A stretch of DNA of 64,000 nucleotides from Desulfosarcinaceae bacterium (GTDB lineage: Bacteria; Desulfobacterota; Desulfobacteria; Desulfobacterales; Desulfosarcinaceae). The stretch lies in contig JASJCL010000012.1 in the NCBI GenBank assembly GCA_030066015.1, forward strand, positions 62,001 to 126,000, given 5' to 3'. The notes beneath the pieces were generated by a model that worked only from the letters and a program-made list of their open reading frames with translations, had not been told where the DNA came from and ran no database searches. Numbering within the stretch: position 1 is the stretch's first letter; the number at the start of each line of letters is the position of its first letter. A program made the position numbers and the translations under genes. Of this stretch, positions 2,908 through 63,727 are shown one piece after another.

Positions 2908-3915
2908 TCAGGCGGCGCCGTCTCCCGCTATGGCCGCCGCCAAGTGATCTCCCATACCATGGCGCTGAAAGAGGTCCACGAAGTAGTCGATCAATTTCTC
3001 CGGATAGTTTTTCTCCAGGCGGGGTATCGAGGCCCGCCGGCTCGAATCGGTTTCCTTCAGAAAAAGGGCGATCATGGCCGGTCCATCCGATGAAAAGCCC
3101 TGCAGATTCAATTGGGACTGGACGGCGTCATAGGTATGGGGTTTGCGCCCAAGAAAAAACACCTTGGGATGCGCTTGGTCGGCGCCCTGGAGTTGAAAAT
3201 CGAAATAGGTGCAGCGCTCCACGACCCGCATCAGCTGCTGATCGGGATGCTGTTTAAGCGCCCGCAAGATGTTGCCGAAATAGGTGGCGATCAGATGGCG
3301 GTGCCCATCACTTGTGTCCCGGAGTTGGGCTTCCAGATAGGCCTCCAGACACTTGCGGCAACAATAGGTCTCGGAGCGGTAGCCCGCCTCGAAGGTGTGC
3401 AGTTGGTTCTCTTTGCGTTCCCGGAAGAGGGCACGATTAAATTCCAGATAGAATTGCTGGGCGTCGCCATCGCCCGCGTAGGCCTTGTCTTGACCGAGGT
3501 AGAGTTCCTCGGGCATGAACAGCACACTGGGCGACCCTTTGACAAGCACCCGGGCGCCTTCGAGCCGCTCCAGCGGTGAGAGCAGCAGACGCATGTGCAG
3601 GTGGTCGTATAGAGAGAGGGTATTGCCCTCGATCTTGCGGCGCAGGTTATTGCTCAGGATGCTGGGAATATCGTGGGTATTGAGAGGGCGGTAGTCGTAC
3701 TCGGCCAGTGTCTGGTTAATCTCGCTGATGGAAAAATTGAGCGCCAGCATTACCGAAGCGATCTTATCTTTACCGGGGCGGTTAATGCTGTCGTTTACCA
3801 GTTTGGTGAGGTAGGTATGGGAAACGCCGGAGGTTTTGCTGATGGTGTTCAGCTTGAGGCCGCTGGCCTGAATGATGTTCCGAATACGGTTGGGGAACTG
3901 GCGCATCACCTTCAT
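2908..3915 (-). CDS. XRE/Cro-type helix-turn-helix regulator with long unknown C-terminal domain
   Basis: A 335-residue cytoplasmic protein. Residues about 8-62 form an XRE-like helix-turn-helix (IIQASGLKLNTISKTSGVSHTYLTKLVND), with the usual recognition-helix pattern. The remaining 270 residues are not a family I recognise. They contain a Cys cluster (YCCRKC near residue 190) and many aromatic residues and could bind a ligand or metal. It is transcribed away from metK with 427 bases between the starts, so regulation of the SAM cycle genes is possible but only inferred from position. The next leftward gene is dppA, 543 bases on. Function beyond DNA binding is unknown. Confidence 0.75.
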   Translation of the reverse strand: MKVMRQFPNRIRNIIQASGLKLNTISKTSGVSHTYLTKLVNDSINRPGKDKIASVMLALNFSISEINQTLAEYDYRPLNTHDIPSILSNNLRRKIEGNTLSLYDHLHMRLLLSPLERLEGARVLVKGSPSVLFMPEELYLGQDKAYAGDGDAQQFYLEFNRALFRERKENQLHTFEAGYRSETYCCRKCLEAYLEAQLRDTSDGHRHLIATYFGNILRALKQHPDQQLMRVVERCTYFDFQLQGADQAHPKVFFLGRKPHTYDAVQSQLNLQGFSSDGPAMIALFLKETDSSRRASIPRLEKNYPEKLIDYFVDLFQRHGMGDHLAAAIAGDGAA

Positions 3916-4342
3916 CGCTGGGAAAATGGGTGGGGGGTAACCAGAACGCGTCGCCGGTGGGCAACGACGTCGATGGAACCGTGTTGTGAACAGGACATCA
4001 ACCCGATTGCCATGTATTTAGAGAATTACCCAACTCAATGCAATCTTTTTTTAAAAACCAAGTTTAATCTTTTTTCAAACTCGTGTCGCTGCGCTGTAGC
4101 GCCCCCGATTCAGGCGCTGGCTAAGAACATTGCCGAAGCCCGGCGGCATCGAAACCCCCTTATCGCGACTATAGGATTGACAGCCCAGTCATCCACCTCT
4201 TATATTTTCAGGCCGGCTTAAAGACCGTCCCTGAATTGACGATACCATCAAAAACACCTCCACCCGCGGAACCATGGTATGGTACAAAGCGCTCCCTCGG
4301 CCAACGCTGGCAGCCGCGCTAAAAATCGAATAAGGAGACCGC
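3916..4342. other. Divergent intergenic region between XRE regulator and metK
   Basis: These 427 bases separate the divergent XRE gene and metK. They hold a good rightward promoter (4177-4206, listed separately) and an mRNA leader of about 130 bases before metK. The leader contains overlapping repeats of the type CCATGGTATGG (near 4272) and GC-rich pairing segments just before the ribosome site. They do not match a SAM riboswitch pattern that I know. No gene is seen. Confidence 0.5.
4177..4206 (+). promoter_or_regulatory. Sigma-70 promoter for metK-ahcY
   Basis: Perfect TTGACA (4177-4182), 18-base spacer, TATATT (4201-4206). The predicted start near 4213 gives a leader of about 130 bases to the metK ATG. 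This is one of the best consensus promoters in the window and suits a housekeeping operon. Confidence 0.65.
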
Positions 4343-5515
4343 ATGAGTCAGGAAAAGTTTCTGTTCACCTCCGAGTCGGTGACCGAAGGCCACCCCGACA
4401 AAGTCGCCGATGCCATCTCAGATGCCATCCTGGATGCTATCATGGCCGAAGACACTTCCTGTCGCGTGGCCTGCGAGACCCTGGTGACCACCGGCATGGC
4501 CTTCATCGCCGGTGAAATAAGCACCCATTGTTACGTGGATATGCCCCACATCGTGCGTTCGACCATCCGTGACATCGGCTACAACTCCTCCCAGATGGGG
4601 TTTGACTGGCGCACCTGCGCCGTGCAAACCAGCATCGATCACCAGAGCCCTGACATCGCCCAGGGGGTCAACCAGGGAGAAGGGCTTTTCAAAGATCAGG
4701 GGGCCGGCGACCAAGGCCTCATGTTCGGCTTCGCTACCAACGAAACCCCCGAGTTCATGCCCATGCCCATCATGTACGCCCATAAGCTAACGCGCCGTCT
4801 GGCCGCGGTCCGTAAGAACGGCGAGTTGGACTTTCTGCGCCCCGACGGCAAATCGCAGGTGACGATCGAATATGTCGGCGGAATGCCGCGGCGGGTCGAC
4901 ACGGTGGTGGTTTCCACCCAGCACAAGCCCGACGTCACCTATGACGATCTGCGTGAAGCCGTCATCGAAGAGGTCATTAAAAAGGTGATACCCGCCGAAA
5001 TGATCGATGGCGATACCCGCTATTTCATCAATCCCACCGGCCGATTCGTCACCGGCGGCCCCATGGGTGACTGCGGTCTTACCGGGCGCAAGATCATCGT
5101 GGACACCTATGGCGGTCAGGGCAGCCACGGCGGTGGCTGCTTCTCCGGCAAGGACCCTTCCAAAGTGGACCGCAGCGCCTCCTACATGGGGCGTCACATT
5201 GCCAAAAACCTCGTGGCCGCCGGCTTGGCCAAGAAATGCGAGGTCCAGATCGCCTACGCCATCGGCGTTGCCGAACCAGTCTCGGTAATGGTGGACCTTA
5301 TGTGGAGCGGTGCGCTACCGAAGGAAAAGGTTGAGAAGATTGTCCGTGATACCTGGGACCTGCGGCCTGCGGCCATCATCGAATATCTGGATCTGCTGCG
5401 GCCCATCTACCGCAAAACAGCTGCATATGGTCATTTCGGCCGCACCGAGCCCGAATTCAATTGGGAACACACCAACAAGGTGGAAGAGTTGCGGGACCGC
5501 GCCGGCCTAAGCTAA
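4343..5515 (+). CDS. metK: S-adenosylmethionine synthetase
   Basis: A 390-residue cytosolic enzyme that makes S-adenosylmethionine from methionine and ATP, releasing phosphate and pyrophosphate. Family motifs are all present: GHPDK at residues 16-20, the ATP-binding GAGDQG at 120-125, and the glycine-rich loop [17 protein letters not shown] at 263-279. Length is normal (about 385-395). An AAGGAG ribosome site lies 8 bases before the ATG, and a consensus promoter lies about 140 bases upstream. It is followed after 91 bases by ahcY, making a compact module for SAM production and removal of the product inhibitor S-adenosylhomocysteine. Nothing in the sequence is unusual. Confidence 0.98.
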
Positions 5516-28494: not shown

Positions 28495-29586
28495 ATGGAA
28501 CAGCACCGAATGAACCGAAGATCTTTTCTTAAATACTGCGGCGGCATTGCGGCCACCTTGGGTCTCAGCCAGGCGATGGTGCCCCAAATCGTGCGGGCCC
28601 TCACCACTGACAACCGACCGCCGGTCATTTGGCTCCATTTCGCCGAATGCACCGGCTGCAGCGAGGCCTTCCTGCGGGCAACCGATCCTGGCGTGGCCGA
28701 CATCCTCTTGGATGTCCTCAACGTCACCTACCATGAAACCATCCAGGTCGCCTGTGGCGAAAAAGCGGAGCACAACCGCGATCAAACCGTCGCCGACTAT
28801 GCCGGCGAGTTCATCTGTGTGGTGGAAGGCGCCATTCCCACCGCCAACAACGGTGCCTACGGGATGATCGGCGGCCGCACCATGCTCGACATCGCCCAGA
28901 CCGTCATTCCCCAGGCCAAGCATACCATCGCCCTGGGCACCTGCGCCGCGTATGGTGGTCTGCCGGCGGCGGCCCCCAACCCCACCGGCGCCAAAGGCGT
29001 CAAGGACGCCATCGGCGTCTCCACTATCAATATCACGGGATGCCCGCCCCATCCCATGAACCTGGTCGCCACCATCACCAGCTACCTGCTCAACAACCAG
29101 ATGCCGGCTCTGCGGTCCGACGGCCGCCCCTATTTCTGCCACGGCGACACCATCCATTCGGGCTGCCCCACGCCCCACGGCTGCATGGAAGGATACAATT
29201 GCAAGGGGCCGCGCACCTACAACAACTGCCATCAGCAGGCGTATAACGAAGAATCGTGGTGCATCCAGGTCGAGCATCAATGCATCGGCTGCTCGGAGCC
29301 CGGCTTCTGGGATGCCCATGCACCCTTTTACAATCCCATGTGGGTCCCCATGTTCAGCACCTACCGTCCGACGGCCATACCCCACGAAGATCAGAAAACG
29401 GCGAGCTGCAACCGCTGCCACGGGGGCGGCATCTTCGAGGAGGAGGAGGCCGTTCAGAGCGATCCGCGCCGGTTCCAACAGGCGATGCACCGTGAACATG
29501 AGATCCGCCTGATGACCAACCGCAGCTGCGCCAACTGCCATCCGGAGGCCCCCGGCGGGACCTACGAACAGATCATCGATGATTAA
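28495..29586 (+). CDS. hynB: [NiFe] hydrogenase small subunit with C-terminal diheme c extension
   Basis: A 363-residue exported electron-transfer subunit. The Tat signal NRRSFLKYC is at residues 7-15. Proximal [4Fe-4S] ligands are C52, C55, C150 and C183 (ECTGC, LGTCAAYGG, TGCPPHP). Distal ligands are H221, C224, C230 and C236. Medial ligands are C245, C263 and C266, plus C256 in the WC position where standard enzymes have WP, so a medial [4Fe-4S] rather than [3Fe-4S] is predicted. After CIGCSEPGFWD (263-273), where family members usually end soon, about 90 more residues carry two c-heme motifs, CNRCH (305-309) and CANCH (345-349). The ribosome site GGAGG lies 5 bases upstream. The large subunit follows after 62 bases. 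Confidence 0.93.
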   Translation: MEQHRMNRRSFLKYCGGIAATLGLSQAMVPQIVRALTTDNRPPVIWLHFAECTGCSEAFLRATDPGVADILLDVLNVTYHETIQVACGEKAEHNRDQTVADYAGEFICVVEGAIPTANNGAYGMIGGRTMLDIAQTVIPQAKHTIALGTCAAYGGLPAAAPNPTGAKGVKDAIGVSTINITGCPPHPMNLVATITSYLLNNQMPALRSDGRPYFCHGDTIHSGCPTPHGCMEGYNCKGPRTYNNCHQQAYNEESWCIQVEHQCIGCSEPGFWDAHAPFYNPMWVPMFSTYRPTAIPHEDQKTASCNRCHGGGIFEEEEAVQSDPRRFQQAMHREHEIRLMTNRSCANCHPEAPGGTYEQIIDD

Positions 29587-29648
29587 GACCCACCAGGATG
29601 AACTGCATCGCCGCGGCGATGTCCACTAGACAATTAAGGAGCACATTC

Positions 29649-32258
29649 ATGGCGGAACCCAATATTCTCACCAGCACCTCCCGCGTAGAGGTTCCCGAGG
29701 GCGGCAAGGCCACCTTCAACGTCAGACTATCCGCACGACCGGCTGAGCGCCGCACCATCGTGCGCATCCGGCGGATCAACGGCGACGGCGACGTCAGCCT
29801 GGCTTCCAAATCCCGCTTGCGCTTCACGCGACGCAACTATCGCCGCTGGCAAACCGTCACCCTGCAAGCCGCCCAAGACGGTGACACGGCACCGGGCGAG
29901 GCGCTATTTCGGCTCAGCGGCGAGGATGTTCAGGCCACCGAGATCACGGCGGTGGAGGTGGAGAACGACTTTCCTGTTCCCGAACCGCCCCTCATCGTCA
30001 CCAGCACCAGCAGCGTCCAGGTGCCCGAGGGTGGTTCGGCCAGCTTCAACGTCAAACTCTCCGCCCGCCCGCTTGAGGATACGGCGACGATTGGGATCAC
30101 GCGGATCTCGGGAGATGCCGACATCGCCCTGGCCTCGGCGGGAACGCTCACCTTTAGCGCCAGTGCCTACAACCAGTGGCAGACGGTGACCCTGAAGGCG
30201 GCCGAAGATGGGGATACCACCAACGGCCAGGCCCTCTTCCGGCTGGCGGGCGACCATCTGGCGGCCCTGGACGTGGTTGCCACCGAGATCGACAATGACG
30301 AGGAGCCGCCCGTCTATCAGATTCAGACCGATGTCAGCCGCCTCACGGTCGTCGAGGGGGGTACGGCCTCGTTTCGCGTGCGCCTCAGCGCCGATCCGCG
30401 GAACACCGTGCGTCTCACCGTGGGCCACGCCGGCGGTGATGCCGACATCGCCGTGAGCGCCGGCGGTACCATCTATTTCAACAGCACCAACTGGGACAGC
30501 TATCAACCGGTAACCCTGGCGGCGGCCGAGGATCCCGACGGTGACAACGGGACGGCCCGTTTTGCCCTCGCGGTTGATGGGGCCGAGACCGTTCAGGTCA
30601 CCGCCGTTGAGGTCGACGCCGGCGGTGGCGCGTCGGGTCGGGTGGTCATCGACCCCGTGTCGCGCATCGAAGGCCACCTGCGGGTGGAGGTCTCGGTCAG
30701 CAATGGCGCCGTGGAGAAAGCCTGGTCGAGCGCCACCCTCTTCCGAGGAATCGAACGAATCCTTCAGGGCCGCGATCCCCATGACGCCCCTTTGATCACC
30801 CAGCGGCTGTGCGGCGTCTGCACCTATGTCCATCAATTGTGTTCGGTGCGGGCCATCGAAGATGCCGCCGGCATCGTCATTCCGGAGAACGCCCGGGTTG
30901 TGCGCAATCTCATCCTGGGCGCCCAGTTCATGCACGACCACATCGTCCACTTTTATCATCTCCACGGTCTCGATTGGGCCGACATCACCAAGGCCTTGGC
31001 AGCCGATCCTGCCGCCACTGCCCAGTTGGCGGCGACCATCTCGCCCCAGGCCGATCCCATCGATTTCGCCGCAGTCCAGCACCGGCTGCAGCAGCTGGTG
31101 AATACGGGCAATCTGGGCCCCTTCGCGAACGCCTACTGGGGTCACGCCGACTATCGTCTGACACCGGAGGAGAATCTGCTGGTCACGGCCCACTACCTGA
31201 GCGCCCTGGAAATTCAGGTCACCGCAGCCAAGATGATGGCCATCCTGGGCGGCAAGAATCCACACCCCCAATCGGTCATCGTGGGAGGGGTTACCTGCGG
31301 TGGCGAATTGACGCCCCAGCGGCTGGCCACCTTCAGGGACTATCTCGCCCAAACCCAGCGGTTTATCGAAACCGTCTACCTGCCCGATCTGAAGGCGGTG
31401 GCCGCCAAGTACATGGATTGGACCGCCGTCGGCGGCTTCAGCAATTTTCTGGCCTGCGGTGAGTTCCCCCAGAGCGTCGACGAGTTGGACCTCTTCATGC
31501 CGAGGGGCGTTATCCTCAACGGAGATCTTTTCAACGTACAGCCATTGGATGAGGCTCACATCTCGGAGCACGTGGCCCACTCCTGGTATGCGGGCGACGG
31601 CGAGCTCCATCCGCTGTCGGGCCATACCGAGCCCGCCTTTACGGGACTGGATGTCGACAATCGCTACTCCTGGTTCAAAGCGCCGCGCTACGATGGCGCC
31701 GCCATGGAGGTGGGGTGTCTGGCCCGGGTTCTCGTGGGCTACGGCATGGGGAAGCCCGAATTCGTGGATGCCGTGCAGGCGTTTTTGACCGATACCAACC
31801 TCACCGAAGCGGACCTGCTCTCGACCGTGGGACGCACCGCTGCGAGGGCCATTGAAACGGCCCTTATCGGTAACGCCATGTTCGACTGGTTGGATGAACT
31901 GAACGGCAATTTAGAATCGGGCGACAAGGAGATTTACACGGGCTACGAACTGGGAACCGGTTATGGCCGAGGTCTGCTCGAGGCACCCCGCGGCGCATTG
32001 GGCCATTGGATCGACATGCAAGACAAAACCACCCAGCGCTACCAGATGGTGGTGCCAACCACCTGGAACCTCGGACCGCGCTGCGCCAACCGCATTGCCG
32101 GCCCCATGGAGAAAGCGCTGGTGGGGGTGCCGGTGGTGGATCCGGAAAACCCTGTCGAGGTCCTGCGCGTTATCCACAGCTTCGACCCTTGCGTCGCCTG
32201 CGGTGTGCACGTCATCGACAAGGATCGCAACAAAGCGTATACGGTCAAGGTCATCTGA
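29649..32258 (+). CDS. hynA: [NiFe] hydrogenase large subunit with three N-terminal Calx-beta-like repeats
   Basis: An 869-residue catalytic subunit, about 320 residues longer than usual (about 540). Residues 4-107, 114-217 and 223-323 are three repeats of one beta-sandwich type: V-VPEGG-A-FNV-LSA-P, then GD-D-----S-L-F----Y--WQTVTL-AA-D-DT--G-ALFRL, then -TE--ND. The repeats resemble Calx-beta modules found in secreted and adhesive proteins. From residue 331 (RVVIDPVSRIEGHLRVEV) it is a complete [NiFe] domain: L1 motif RLCGVCTYVH (386-395) and L2 motif DPCVACGVH (846-854) give the four Ni ligands, and a 15-residue C-terminal peptide awaits protease removal. The codon at C851 is TGC, so it is not NiFeSe. 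It has no own signal and should ride out with the Tat-bearing small subunit. Start 29649 has AAGGAG upstream. Confidence 0.93.
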   Translation: MAEPNILTSTSRVEVPEGGKATFNVRLSARPAERRTIVRIRRINGDGDVSLASKSRLRFTRRNYRRWQTVTLQAAQDGDTAPGEALFRLSGEDVQATEITAVEVENDFPVPEPPLIVTSTSSVQVPEGGSASFNVKLSARPLEDTATIGITRISGDADIALASAGTLTFSASAYNQWQTVTLKAAEDGDTTNGQALFRLAGDHLAALDVVATEIDNDEEPPVYQIQTDVSRLTVVEGGTASFRVRLSADPRNTVRLTVGHAGGDADIAVSAGGTIYFNSTNWDSYQPVTLAAAEDPDGDNGTARFALAVDGAETVQVTAVEVDAGGGASGRVVIDPVSRIEGHLRVEVSVSNGAVEKAWSSATLFRGIERILQGRDPHDAPLITQRLCGVCTYVHQLCSVRAIEDAAGIVIPENARVVRNLILGAQFMHDHIVHFYHLHGLDWADITKALAADPAATAQLAATISPQADPIDFAAVQHRLQQLVNTGNLGPFANAYWGHADYRLTPEENLLVTAHYLSALEIQVTAAKMMAILGGKNPHPQSVIVGGVTCGGELTPQRLATFRDYLAQTQRFIETVYLPDLKAVAAKYMDWTAVGGFSNFLACGEFPQSVDELDLFMPRGVILNGDLFNVQPLDEAHISEHVAHSWYAGDGELHPLSGHTEPAFTGLDVDNRYSWFKAPRYDGAAMEVGCLARVLVGYGMGKPEFVDAVQAFLTDTNLTEADLLSTVGRTAARAIETALIGNAMFDWLDELNGNLESGDKEIYTGYELGTGYGRGLLEAPRGALGHWIDMQDKTTQRYQMVVPTTWNLGPRCANRIAGPMEKALVGVPVVDPENPVEVLRVIHSFDPCVACGVHVIDKDRNKAYTVKVI

Positions 32259-32282: not shown

Positions 32283-32309
32283 CGGGGGCGCTGTAAATCA
32301 GCGCCCCCG
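32283..32309 (+). terminator. Terminator after hydrogenase large subunit
   Basis: An 11-bp perfect stem (GGGGGCGCTG at 32284-32293 with CAGCGCCCCC at 32299-32308, plus one flanking C-G pair) with a TAAAT loop, then GTTGTATTT. It lies 25 bases after the stop and shows the hydrogenase transcript has only two genes. Confidence 0.7.
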
Positions 32310-36476: not shown

Positions 36477-38582
36477 CTACTCGGGAGCGGCGTACTCCAG
36501 CGCCACTGTCACCGTGCGGTTGAGGGCACGGCCTTCGGGCAGGGCATTGTCGTACAGCGGCGCAAAGGGACCCGCCCCCGAGTAGGACAGCTTACCCGGA
36601 GCTGAAATCCCCGCCAGGGCGATCTGGTCGTTCACCACGATAGCTCGCCGGTCTGACAGCGCCAGGTTGTAGTCATCCTTGCCAATGTTGTCGGTGTGCC
36701 CGGTGATGGTCACCTGGGCTTCGGGAAACTTCTGCAACCGCTGAATGATGCGGTTCATGATGATCTGGTTGCGATCCTTGACCTCGTCACTGTCGTAGTC
36801 GAAGAGGATCAGAGCATACTTCTCGCGGACACGGTATCCTTGGCGCTCCGCCAACTGCTGCTTGCGCTGAACGTAGCGCACCTCCACCAGATCATCGCTC
36901 TCCTTCTCCAGTACTTTGCCCTCTTTGTCGGTAATGGTCAGCCGGGCGGCGAGGGTCTCAAAGCCGGCCAGTCGGTCCAGGCCGAACGCCTCCACCGCAA
37001 AATCGATCTCGCTGGGCGGATCTCCCTGCCCTTCGCGGACGGCAAGCGGGGTGTCGTTGCCATACAGGTCTACCCGCCAGGTGGCGACGCCCGCTTCGGC
37101 GCTCACCTCGGGCCGGAGCAGAATCTTCTCCGTATCGGTGACGGCCTGGAAATAGGTGCTCTGAACGGTATCCAGAATGGCGGGATGGTCGCTCAGAATC
37201 TCCACCCTGCGGTTTTCGGCCTGACCTTCGGGATTGCGGCTGGTGCTGGGAGCCGATGGCAGGTTCTGGGCGACGATCTGAATGCGCTCGGCCGGAATGG
37301 ACCAGATGTAGCGCAGATAGGCGCGCACTGCTTCGGCACGACTGTTGGAGAGATCCTGGCGCCCCTTTTCCACGCCCACGTTGGCGTTGCAGCCCACAAG
37401 GGTCACCTTGGCGTCCGCATGTTCCCGCAAGCGCTTGCCGATGATGTTGAGAACGTGGGCGTATTTTTCCATCACACCGCGCAACTCTTTGTCATCAAAG
37501 GTCTTGGTGGCGGCCAGATCGGGCAGCAGCTGGTACTTCGGTGGCAATTCGGACTGGCCCTCGGCAAAGTAGATGTGATTGAGCAGGGGGGCACTGTCCA
37601 GGGTGGTGATCTCTTCAATGGTCACCTGGCTGGGTGCCAAGCCGAGGAGTCCCTCCGGCGCGTGCAGGAACCGATAGGTCACCACGTAACGGTGCAGGAT
37701 GGTGGTGGCGAACGCTTCGAAGATGGGCACCAGTTCACTGGCGGAAGCGGCCTTCCAGGTTCTGCCACCGGCGACCCCGGCGAATTGCTCCAAAAAGGGG
37801 TCCGTGGTGGCGGCGGGCGTAAAATCCACCGCATAGGCCGTGAAGTTGTCAATGGGGCCGGCGGCATCCAGCAGACGATCGGTTTTCACCTCGCTGTTGA
37901 GGTCTTTGCCGTCGCTGAACACCACCAGGAATTTGTTCTCCTTGGCCGGCATGCTGCGGATGATCTCCAACCCGGCGGCCACTCCGTCATAGAGATAGGT
38001 CCCGGTGGTGAGCCCTTTTTGAAAGCTGGTTTCGAAGAAGCCCCGCAGTGCGCCGATGTCGGCAGAGTTGAAGCTGTTCAACCGCAGATCCTGTCCCCCC
38101 ACCGACATGGTCTGCTTTTCGTCGAAGACAACTGCATGGATATTATCGATGGGACGCACCGTCTGGTAAAAGGCCTCCAGGGCTTCCATCAAGGGCGCCA
38201 CCGCTCCCCGCTGCTTCATGGAGAAGGAGTTGTCCACCACCAGGACGATATTCAGGGGGATATCCAGATCGGTCTCGAGCGGTTCCACGCTGAGGATCTT
38301 CGCCTGGCGATTGCCCTGGCTGAGCCGAAAATCGGCCAACCCCAGCCCCAGGATGGGTGCGTCGGTCTGATCGCGGGCGGAGACCACCAGCTTACCAGCG
38401 GCGACCTCCTGGAACGAAAGCGCTGTGGCCGTTTCCGGGCCTTGCAGGGCCAGTGGGGCCGCCGTGGTCTCATCGTCCGCTGGGGACGATTGGGGGGTGT
38501 CAGTGCCATCAGTGGACCACGCCGGCGTATGGATCAAGAGCAGCCCGCAAACAAGCAGGGCCGCAAGAAAACACCTCTTCAT
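36477..38582 (-). CDS. Secreted von Willebrand A protein with two OmpA-like domains
   Basis: A 701-residue exported protein. A signal peptide (MKRCFLAALLVCGLLLIHTPAWS) is followed by a VWA domain at about 110-300 with an intact MIDAS (VVDNSFSM, then Thr and Asp positions in GTYLYDG and FSDGKDLNS). Two OmpA C-terminal type domains follow. The first is at about 335-465 (NHIYFAEGQSELPP... VTLVGCNANVGVEKGRQDLSNSRAEAVRAYL... ENRRVEI), and the second at about 575-695 (ALILFDYDSDEVKDRN... VTITGHTDNIGKDDYNLALSDRRA... RALNRTV). They are separated by a beta-rich linker. OmpA domains bind peptidoglycan diaminopimelate, so the protein is likely periplasmic and wall-anchored, with the VWA as a metal-dependent binding module. 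The partner is unknown. GAGGAGG precedes the ATG. Confidence 0.85.
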   Translation of the reverse strand: MKRCFLAALLVCGLLLIHTPAWSTDGTDTPQSSPADDETTAAPLALQGPETATALSFQEVAAGKLVVSARDQTDAPILGLGLADFRLSQGNRQAKILSVEPLETDLDIPLNIVLVVDNSFSMKQRGAVAPLMEALEAFYQTVRPIDNIHAVVFDEKQTMSVGGQDLRLNSFNSADIGALRGFFETSFQKGLTTGTYLYDGVAAGLEIIRSMPAKENKFLVVFSDGKDLNSEVKTDRLLDAAGPIDNFTAYAVDFTPAATTDPFLEQFAGVAGGRTWKAASASELVPIFEAFATTILHRYVVTYRFLHAPEGLLGLAPSQVTIEEITTLDSAPLLNHIYFAEGQSELPPKYQLLPDLAATKTFDDKELRGVMEKYAHVLNIIGKRLREHADAKVTLVGCNANVGVEKGRQDLSNSRAEAVRAYLRYIWSIPAERIQIVAQNLPSAPSTSRNPEGQAENRRVEILSDHPAILDTVQSTYFQAVTDTEKILLRPEVSAEAGVATWRVDLYGNDTPLAVREGQGDPPSEIDFAVEAFGLDRLAGFETLAARLTITDKEGKVLEKESDDLVEVRYVQRKQQLAERQGYRVREKYALILFDYDSDEVKDRNQIIMNRIIQRLQKFPEAQVTITGHTDNIGKDDYNLALSDRRAIVVNDQIALAGISAPGKLSYSGAGPFAPLYDNALPEGRALNRTVTVALEYAAPE

Positions 38583-61582: not shown

Positions 61583-63727
61583 TCAGCTCAACCGGCGCAC
61601 CTTCAGCACCCCCTTCACCTTGCGCATGGCGGAAGTCAAACGGCCGAGGTGCTCTGTATTGCCCACGAGTATGGTAAAGAAGCCGTCCACGGTCTTGTCG
61701 TCGTGTACCTCGGTGTTGGCGGAGATAATGTTCGCGCCGATCTTGCTGATCACGCCCGCAATATCGGCCAGAAGCCCCACGCGATCCATGGAGCGCACCA
61801 CGATGCGGACAGGGTAGGTGTCTCCGATGCCGTCGTCCCAGGCCACCTCGATCTGCCGCTCGGGATTCATCTGCAAAGCGTTGACACAATTGGTGCGGTG
61901 GATGGTCACGCCCTGCCCCTGGGTGATGTAGCCAGTGATATTGTCGCCGGGCACAGGCTGGCAGCACTTGCCGAACCGCACCAGTATATCGTCCAAGCCC
62001 TTGACGGTGACGCCGCCCTTCTCCTTTTTCTTGCGGACCTTGTCGATAATCTTGTCGAGTAGATTGGCGTCCGGCGTCTCCTCCGACTTGGGTTTGATGC
62101 GCCGGATGATCTGAAGCGGGGTGATCTTGCCGTAGCCCACGCTGGCGATGAGGTCGTCGACCGTCTTGAACCCGAAATGGCGGACCGCCTTTTCCATCTC
62201 GTCCGATTTGACCAGGGTGTTGAAATTCAGGCGGTACTTGCGAAACTCCTTTTCGCACATCTCCCGCCCCAGACTGAGGCTGCGCTCCTTCTCCTGGATC
62301 TTGATCCACTGACGCACTTTGGAGCGCGCCTTGACGGTTTTAACGAAACTGATCCAGTCCTTGCTGGGGTGGTGGCCTTTGGTGGTGATGATCTCGACAA
62401 TCTCACCCGTCTGCAGCTCATACTTGAGGGGCACCATGCGGCCGTTAACCTTGGCGCCAGTGCACTGGTTGCCCACTTCGGTGTGGATCAGGTAGGCGAA
62501 ATCCACCGGTGTGGCCCCCTTGGGCAGCGACTTCACCTCTCCATGCGGCGTAAACACGTATACCTCATCGGGAAACAGATCGATGCGCACATTTTCCAGG
62601 AACTCGGCCGGATCCTGGAAATTCTCCTGGTTCTCAACCAGATTTTGTACCCAACTAATGGTGCGGTTGAGATTCTCGTCTCCCCTGACACCCTCCTTGT
62701 AGCTCCAGTGGGCGGCGATGCCGGACTTGGCCACCCGGTCCATCTCGTGGGTGCGAATCTGGATCTCGATGCGTTCCCCGTACAGCCCGATCACCGTGGT
62801 GTGCAGACTTTGGTACATATTGGGCTTGGGCATGCCGATGTAGTCTTTGAATTTCTGGGCGATGGGCCGCCAGAGGCTGTGGATAACGCCCAGTGCCTCG
62901 TAGCAATGGGGGACGGTGTCGAGGATGATGCGGAACGCGATAATGTCGTAAACTTCTTCGAAGCTGAGGTTCTGGGACAGCATCTTCTGGTGAATACTGA
63001 AGAAGTGCTTGAACCGACCAAGCACCAGACAGGGCAGGCCGTTCTCCTCCATCTTCTGCTCGATATAGCTCTTTACCGTCGCGACATACTCCTCACGCTC
63101 CTCTTTCTCTTTGGCGACGAGGGACTCGATCTCGGTAAACTTCTCGGGTTCCATGTACCGGAAGGAGATGTTCTCCAGCTCTTTCTTGATCCAGTAGATC
63201 CCCAGGCGGGAGGCGATGGGGGCGTAAATGTCCAGGGTTTCGCGGGCGATTTTACGCTTCTTCTCCTCATTGTGATGGTACTGCAGGGTTCGCATATTGT
63301 GCAGACGGTCGGCCAATTTGATCAAGATGACCCGGATGTCATCGGCCATCGCCAGGATCATTTTGCGGATACTCTCCGCTTCGCGGGCCTGGGCGTTGTT
63401 GGCGAAGGGCAGGGTCGAGAGTTTGGTCACCCCGTTGACGATGTGGGTCACCTCCTTGCCGAAGATCTCCGTCAACTCCTCTTCGGAAGCATGGGTGTCC
63501 TCGATCACATCGTGCAGCAGACCGGCCGCCACGCTGACGGGGTCCAGTTTCATGTCCGCCAGGATACCGGCAACCTCGAGCGGATGACTGAGGTAGGGCT
63601 CGCCGGAGAGACGCACCTGGCCGTCGTGGACACGGGCCGAGTAAACATAGGCCCGGTCGACCACGTCCAGATCGGCCTCCGAATTGTACTCGACCATCTT
63701 GTCGAGAATGTCGGTGATACGTATCAT
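61583..63727 (-). CDS. rel: Bifunctional (p)ppGpp synthetase/hydrolase, RelA/SpoT family
   Basis: A 714-residue cytosolic enzyme of the stringent response. The HD hydrolase domain is near residues 20-190 with SHPLEVA and LLHDVIEDT. The synthetase domain at about 230-340 shows GRFKHFFSIHQKML, the FRIILDTVPHCYEALGVIHSLW block and MPKPNMYQSLHTTVIG. TGS (VYVFTPHGEVKSLPKGATPVDFAYLIHTEVG) and C-terminal zinc-finger/ACT domains follow. Both catalytic domains look intact, so it should make and degrade the alarmone. Start 63727 is chosen because MIRITDILDKM is the family N-terminus; the longer frame overlaps proS. The proS stop lies 46 bases upstream on the same strand. Confidence 0.94.
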   Translation of the reverse strand: MIRITDILDKMVEYNSEADLDVVDRAYVYSARVHDGQVRLSGEPYLSHPLEVAGILADMKLDPVSVAAGLLHDVIEDTHASEEELTEIFGKEVTHIVNGVTKLSTLPFANNAQAREAESIRKMILAMADDIRVILIKLADRLHNMRTLQYHHNEEKKRKIARETLDIYAPIASRLGIYWIKKELENISFRYMEPEKFTEIESLVAKEKEEREEYVATVKSYIEQKMEENGLPCLVLGRFKHFFSIHQKMLSQNLSFEEVYDIIAFRIILDTVPHCYEALGVIHSLWRPIAQKFKDYIGMPKPNMYQSLHTTVIGLYGERIEIQIRTHEMDRVAKSGIAAHWSYKEGVRGDENLNRTISWVQNLVENQENFQDPAEFLENVRIDLFPDEVYVFTPHGEVKSLPKGATPVDFAYLIHTEVGNQCTGAKVNGRMVPLKYELQTGEIVEIITTKGHHPSKDWISFVKTVKARSKVRQWIKIQEKERSLSLGREMCEKEFRKYRLNFNTLVKSDEMEKAVRHFGFKTVDDLIASVGYGKITPLQIIRRIKPKSEETPDANLLDKIIDKVRKKKEKGGVTVKGLDDILVRFGKCCQPVPGDNITGYITQGQGVTIHRTNCVNALQMNPERQIEVAWDDGIGDTYPVRIVVRSMDRVGLLADIAGVISKIGANIISANTEVHDDKTVDGFFTILVGNTEHLGRLTSAMRKVKGVLKVRRLS

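Follow-up and report, generated by a model that had tools for sequence, protein, structure and literature searches.

What could an array of beta-sandwich domains do at the front of a [NiFe] hydrogenase? The question is raised by a locus of a Desulfosarcinaceae bacterium (assembly GCA_030066015.1, contig JASJCL010000012.1), analyzed here within a stretch of 64,000 nucleotides, positions 62,001 to 126,000 of the contig, which is called the window and supplies the coordinates used below. In this locus, the large subunit of the enzyme begins with three repeats, and the small subunit encoded upstream ends in a tail with two haem-c motifs. Taken together, the sequence features point, with little better than even confidence, to a soluble exported group-1 [NiFe] hydrogenase that would have its own haem outlet and a flexible, bead-like arm holding it near a partner or a surface.

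Fusion of a repeat array to the large subunit

The large-subunit gene (29649..32258, + strand; protein P0001) is open from the ATG at 29649 to a stop codon ending at 32258 and encodes 869 amino acids. The sequence AAGGAG lies 7 bases 5' of this ATG; an alternative in-frame ATG occurs at 29598, and the start codons of homologues sit near the 29649 position instead. From N- to C-terminus, the protein comprises the three beta-sandwich repeats, a linker rich in Gly and the whole of a [NiFe] hydrogenase large subunit. The linker (residues 325-331; 30621..30641, + strand) is modelled by AlphaFold2 with a predicted local distance difference test score (pLDDT) <50 at residues 325-328, and its position is, by eye, Gly/Ser/Pro-rich in the other five fused homologues as well. 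The catalytic core, from the DPVSRIEGH motif to the C-terminus (30651..32255, + strand), covers the full PF00374 profile with E 1.1e-200 and aligns with the solved hydrogenase 2frv_B over 513 residues (Z 53.3, root-mean-square deviation 1.8 A). Its Ni ligands, the two CxxC pairs C388/C391 and C848/C851, are invariant in all 41 aligned large subunits (alignment A1, drawn from 101 listed frames), and maturation cleavage presumably takes place after H854, as we assume from the family. The in-frame joining of repeats to a complete hydrogenase domain with all four Ni-ligand cysteines, as described in the first-pass annotation, is thereby confirmed. The score against the NCBIfam equivalog NF033181 (557.4 bits) stays below the cut-off of 600, which is a naming threshold, and PF00374 is matched far above its own. 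[NiFeSe] hydrogenases carry selenocysteine at the active site, whereas the second Ni-ligand pair here has Cys codons and the frame contains no internal stop (TGA).

Large subunits usually begin almost directly at the DPxxRIEGH motif, as had been stated from the outset: among the 101 frames, some of which list a gene twice, only 7 genes have at least 100 residues before it, namely the window gene, L005, L006, L007, L146 (also listed as L088), L116 and L142 (also listed as L120). Where at least 60 upstream residues were open and the frame was not among a set of known cases, the start was placed at the last ATG. L082, L124 and nine further long upstream frames were read and rejected as domain extensions. 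In a Chloroflexi large subunit (L083:223-370), a Pro/Thr-rich stretch of about 50 residues precedes a DPITRIEGH motif. Alignment of the core with the solved enzymes shown sets in at residues 2-20 of those proteins (numbering starts at 1000 in 3myr); with so short a piece ahead of the core, an N-terminal addition is plausible.

The repeats follow a unit of about 105 residues, all on the + strand: repeat 1 (strands at residues 5-104; 29661..29960), repeat 2 (115-214; 29991..30290) and repeat 3 (225-322; 30321..30614). AlphaFold2 models them as three beta-sandwiches, with 10-residue pLDDT means mostly of 80-94 inside the strands. Both the fold and the boundaries first proposed (4-107, 114-217 and 223-323) are matched by this model, the latter within a few residues. 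The beta-sandwich chain is thus secure as a prediction, and its fold does not by itself show the family. Amino-acid identity is 56% between repeats 1 and 2, 44% between 2 and 3, and 37% between 1 and 3; repeats 1 and 2 are also 79% identical in DNA over 80 nt, at a spacing of 330 nt. Across 12 repeats from six genomes, 14 columns are invariant. Repeat 3 shares 55-62% identity with the last repeat of four two-repeat homologues, while repeats 1 and 2 share 48-60% with the first. This pairing suggests that one first-type repeat was probably duplicated in the window lineage, or lost in the others, repeat 3 being of the last type.

The putative two-haem tail and the medial cluster

The small subunit (28495..29586, + strand; 363 amino acids, P0002) combines a twin-arginine translocation (Tat) signal, an iron-sulfur (FeS) relay and the C-terminal tail. 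It reaches 279.4 bits against TIGR00391 (cut-off 179.5) and 24.1 against the Tat-signal model TIGR01409 (cut-off 16.7), with PF01058 and PF14720 also above cut-off. The signal region (residues 6-36; 28510..28602, + strand) contains R8 and R9, which are invariant in all 31 aligned small subunits (alignment A2, from 56 listed frames). Since no export signal was seen on the large subunit, its export, which the first-pass annotation expected to occur together with the small subunit, must rely on that of its partner, and co-export is the probable route. The residues assigned to the three FeS clusters, Cys 52, 55, 150, 183, 224, 230, 236, 245, 263 and 266 and H221, are likewise invariant in 31 of 31. 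Among plasmid records, 126 hold a small-subunit relative at <60% identity, and 2 cover 80% of the small subunit.

The tail (29332..29583, + strand) spans about 84 residues and holds two CxxCH motifs 40 residues apart, CNRCH (residues 305-309) and CANCH (345-349), together with three further histidines (297, 332 and 335), all invariant in the five tails compared. It occurs in the window gene, L005, L006, L146 (L088) and L147 (L116), and is absent from L007 and the other 25 aligned small subunits. A search of the last 120 residues of 60 distinct small-subunit-like frames found CxxCH in five, two in each, and these are the five whose large subunits carry two or three repeats. No membrane-type stretch was found in the tail, the highest 19-residue hydropathy being 0.04. 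All five tails match PF22113, PF02085 and PF14522 at E <0.01 (best 1.7e-6), and the best Pfam match, below cut-off, is to the outer-membrane cytochrome MtrC/MtrF family. Searched alone against the PDB, the window tail gave seven matches, all to cytochrome c3 (E 0.21-0.98 for the whole sequence; at least 9.8 for the two stretches printed). Like cytochromes of the c3, c7 and MtrC type, the tail has CxxCH motifs and extra histidines; it differs in having two motifs rather than three or more, and the four haem motifs of class III cytochrome c are not present. In our interpretation, it is a cytochrome c3-like module that would carry two haems under bis-His ligation.

The same proteins carry a second change. 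Cys256 (29260..29262, + strand) occupies the position of the medial-cluster proline, which among the 31 aligned small subunits is Pro in 25, Cys in five and Asp in one (L007); the five with Cys are the five with the haem tail. Neither the tail nor this Pro-to-Cys ligand, which accompany the two- and three-repeat forms, featured in the first-pass annotation. Cys256 predicts a medial [4Fe-4S] cluster and hence three [4Fe-4S] clusters in total. PMC3701524 describes the same change in Desulfovibrio fructosovorans as converting the [3Fe-4S] cluster to [4Fe-4S], with uptake about 30% lower and evolution nearly doubled, and places Cys at the medial position of [NiFeSe] hydrogenases, a likeness to the enzyme studied here. 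In the one-repeat form without a haem tail (L007:2862-3806), the medial Asp is a possible [4Fe-4S] ligand. A Cys-His pair (C215 H216; 29137-29142), within FCHG, stands shortly before the distal-cluster His in all five haem-tailed small subunits; the others mostly have FAYG.

Comparison with known hydrogenases

The periplasmic [NiFe] hydrogenases of Desulfovibrio (D. gigas, D. vulgaris Miyazaki and D. fructosovorans) hand their electrons to a separate cytochrome c3. They share the core (49-52% identity by Foldseek), a small subunit with a Tat signal, which aligns with the precursor 1h2a_S, and the lack of a membrane stretch in the small-subunit tail. In five alignments, the solved Desulfovibrio small subunits end where the tail begins here and have Pro at the medial position, and the solved large subunits are without the N-terminal domains found here. 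Neither fusion, of repeats to the large subunit or of a haem tail to the small one, was found described in PMC full text, a search outside which most subscription papers lie; PMC10052568 concerns other hydrogenases. The enzyme class and the domain class are each known, and no description of the two combined, on either subunit, turned up in that search.

Relation of the repeats to Calx-beta domains

The repeats had been named Calx-beta-like, and this part of the annotation holds only in a distant sense. No match to PF03160 (Calx-beta) was obtained by hmmscan for the array, for its three repeats or for three homologous repeats, and the window's own genome has no PF03160 site above cut-off. A link emerged from profile comparison with hhalign, for which four profiles were built: A3 (the 12 repeats), A4 (15 Calx-beta domains above the Pfam cut-off, out of 22 extracted from genomes of the same order), A5 (11 of 12 repeats extracted where A3 found relatives in other genomes, L193 left out) and A6 (Big_2 domains from 9 of 13 loci, the single control family). 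The probability was 98.5 between A3 and A5 and 94.1 between A5 and A4. Direct comparison of A3 with A4 gave 67.3 (E 5.1e-5, 67 columns), against 0.5 (E 0.13) for A3 with the A6 control. When searched singly, 5 of the 11 A5 members match PF03160 at E up to 1 (best 1.5e-4) and 7 match DUF4971 (best 0.0032). The repeats may therefore be called, loosely, distant relatives of Calx-beta, best linked via intermediate repeats, rather than members of the Pfam family.

Searches of other kinds placed the repeats no closer. NCBIfam gave two chance-level matches for the 12 repeats, and PDB sequence searches gave weak unrelated matches only. A fold search was made with the large subunit in full. Every PDB row shown was a hydrogenase, so the repeats were barely probed, and the absence of solved Calx-beta structures from the rows listed does not speak against such a fold. 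The 50 rows shown from a viral structure library held no hydrogenases; Ig-like, BACON and Big proteins were among them, at E down to 8.4e-15 (a tail protein) but with low overall query TM-scores of 0.09-0.17.

Relatives of the A3 repeats were found in five genomes besides the window's own, four of which contribute to A5. They lie in nine other frames of 255-2503 amino acids, five of them >1500, and one frame of 2126 residues (G038:C85) holds both repeat relatives and Calx-beta domains above the Pfam cut-off. Elsewhere, the repeat type therefore sits mostly in long proteins, which are probably surface proteins. The window's own genome has no further copies at E 0.001 with the full array or at 1e-6 with A3. 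Within A3, E14 is conserved in 11 of 12 repeats and D74 and D76 in all 12; we take these residues to be placed like the Ca2+ ligands of NCX1, and Ca2+ stiffening of the arm is possible. The VxEG motif and the two invariant Asp are shared with Calx-beta domains and A5 repeats, whereas the later conserved Glu of Calx-beta (A4 E83 and E86) has, by eye, no counterpart here.

Recurrence, phylogeny and constraint

How many hydrogenases carry the fusion, a point left to be checked, was addressed by genome surveys, which place it in six genomes with one to three repeats: that of the window, L005, L006, L007, G020 and G303. The window-type architecture of repeats plus haem tail recurs in Desulfosarcina alkanivorans PL12 (L006, a complete chromosome), Desulfatitalea BRH_c12 (L005), G020 and G303. 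The window has three repeats, L005 and L006 two each, and L007 one. In a contig scan, the match extends into the repeats in 3 of the best 80 of at least 573 relatives (L005, L006 and L007). The fusion was found in 4 of 30 genomes of the family, in 5 of 389 of the order (the same four and G303) and in 2 of 395 of the phylum (the window's own and G654, taken as L007); G002 was counted as L005 and G012 as L006 on agreement of sequence or place. As at most two candidates were scored per genome in the order and phylum surveys, at thresholds of 1e-150 and 1e-190, further fusions may exist. Long open frames of other kinds were read at part of the loci, 12 of the long upstream ones among them.

In a tree of 106 cores built by a quick method, the six fused large subunits form one clade with a Shimodaira-Hasegawa-like approximate likelihood ratio test (SH-aLRT) value of 98; copies of genes already included (L002, L085, L115, L086, L087 and L149) were left out. 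This clade is joined at 99 to a clade of four (96), whose members start with a Big_2-like domain (L142), a Pro-rich stretch (L143) or short sequences (L145 and L121). In L142 (3523-5475; G143:C519, the same gene as L120), about 120 residues are added at the same place and include the Big_2-like domain (profile match 80.4, E 1.3e-5); its small subunit ends in a tail that is rich in Gly, Ser and Tyr and lacks haem motifs. At the L143 locus (G178:C72), a frame with ten CxxCH motifs (about 2936-4819) follows the large subunit.

Ratios of nonsynonymous to synonymous substitution rates (dN/dS, NG86 method) are 0.08-0.23 for the array in four pairings among the four species with two repeats (window and L007 left out), 0.05-0.16 for the tail in three of five pairs, two being not computable, and 0.07-0.12 for the core in five pairs. 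Since dS exceeds 1.5 wherever computable and is near saturation, these values are rough and indicate direction only. All are well below one, and array, tail and core are under purifying selection.

Genomic context

The two subunit genes are taken to form a two-gene operon. A terminator-like hairpin of 11 pairs, 25 bases 3' of the stop codon (32283..32309, + strand), is consistent with this, being a weak sign alone, with 6 such sites found in the region against 3.7 expected. Ten neighbours scanned on both sides are unrelated: a tripartite ATP-independent periplasmic (TRAP) transporter, MerR and GntR regulators, proline racemase, a member of the ornithine cyclodeaminase family, DUF3592 and OmpA proteins. 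A protein of 701 residues at 36477-38582 has OmpA domain matches and an N-terminal half that resembles, by eye, a von Willebrand A domain. No conserved neighbourhood was seen around L005, L006, L007, L146 and L147, whose flanks differ by eye, without a family search on them.

The genome encodes TatC and has two matches for cytochrome c assembly and 12 for class III cytochromes, the latter spread over 9 frames, so the means for export and haem attachment are present, as are electron acceptors. One class III match (G000:C101:48142-49752) adjoins tatC. A second hydrogenase large subunit (G000:C53:19117-20604) has one in-frame TGA and is probably a [NiFeSe] enzyme; a third match (G000:C96:988-2238) is in two pieces, one with TGA.

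Proposed mechanism and alternative explanations

The fusion and its repeats, the Tat signal, the haem motifs, the change to Cys and the conservation are read from the sequence; from them we infer co-export, haem loading, an electron path, bis-His ligation and a tether role, along with the arm's ligand and the enzyme's location. Both subunits would fold in the cytoplasm and leave together via the small-subunit Tat signal. H2 would be split or made at the Ni-Fe site of the large subunit. A relay of three FeS clusters, of which the medial one is probably [4Fe-4S], would carry the electrons on to two c-type haems in the tail, which would take the place of the initial docking to a separate cytochrome. 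The cytochrome c pool of the cell would receive the electrons next; the path is reversible in principle. The one to three Calx-beta-like domains would act as a beaded flexible arm at the large-subunit N-terminus, holding the enzyme at a partner protein or surface; the tethered, surface or extracellular role first suggested for them is a reasonable idea.

Several points weigh against this mechanism. Haem attachment normally takes place outside the membrane, on proteins that are still unfolded, whereas the cargo of Tat is folded. The window tail stays below every curated cut-off (PF22113 22.7/30, PF02085, Cytochrom_CIII, 22.6/22.9 and PF14522 19.1/24.8), and the small-subunit model, with pLDDT <50 at 278-318 and 342-363, gives no usable haem geometry. 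Nothing in the analysis names a ligand for the repeats. L007, with a repeat and without a haem tail, indicates that the two features are separable; as it sits on a long branch, its membership of the clade is less certain. According to PMC3701524, the medial substitution by itself brought no gain in evolution in Alteromonas.

Other explanations fit part of these data. An assembly chimera or frame error was rejected and carries negligible weight: the window comes from a draft assembly of 155 contigs, but the fusion recurs in six genomes, including one complete chromosome and one genome (G303) in which it appears in two contigs, the frame has no stop between repeats and hydrogenase, and the homologues share start region and linker, so the break that might have overturned the fusion is not there. 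Another reading takes the CxxCH motifs to hold zinc or an FeS cluster, or to be remnants. Proteins exported by Tat usually receive their cofactors in the cytoplasm, no cytochrome family is above cut-off for the window tail, and a profile of the five tails finds no cytochrome in the PDB, its sole match being a plant protein like protein disulfide isomerase (E 0.2). Set against this, two CxxCH motifs and three His are invariant in five of five tails, all of which match three multihaem cytochrome models, and a non-haem role is improbable.

The repeats could also be a passive module that aids folding, solubility, oligomerization or spacing, with no specific binding. Their number varies from one to three, the array diverges faster than the core (56-59% against 74-81% identity in the same four pairs), and at the same place members of the sister clade have a Big_2-like domain (L142) or no more than a Pro-rich stretch (L143); but 14 invariant columns in 12 repeats, dN/dS well below one and the mere 6-9 residues that most related hydrogenases have at this position speak against a passive role, which is a serious but unlikely option. 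The enzyme might instead be carried past the outer membrane to work on the cell surface or in the matrix, where it would trade electrons with cytochromes on the outside, with a partner cell or with a mineral. The long proteins taken for surface proteins in which related repeats occur, the one among them that also holds Calx-beta domains, and the sub-threshold MtrC/MtrF match of the tail are in line with this, whereas the Tat route alone ends in the periplasm and none of the ten neighbours suggests an outer-membrane export system. Such a location is doubtful, and equally so its fuller form, in which a self-wired, surface-held enzyme, docked outside the cell by its arm, would use the haem tail to pass electrons directly to or from a solid, a partner cell or outer cytochromes and so couple H2 turnover to extracellular electron transfer in sulfate reducers.

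Implications

In the usual picture, a periplasmic hydrogenase finds its cytochrome partner by diffusion. In the present enzyme, the small subunit seems to have acquired a two-haem module in the course of evolution, and the large subunit an arm of adhesion type, which poses the question of how haem is covalently attached to a Tat-exported protein. The enzyme is open to testing in Desulfosarcina alkanivorans PL12, a named strain with a complete chromosome that is presumably in culture. If the proposal is true, it would be a natural wired and anchored hydrogenase, useful for bio-electrodes, and would bear on the debate over electron exchange between sulfate reducers and H2, iron or partners.

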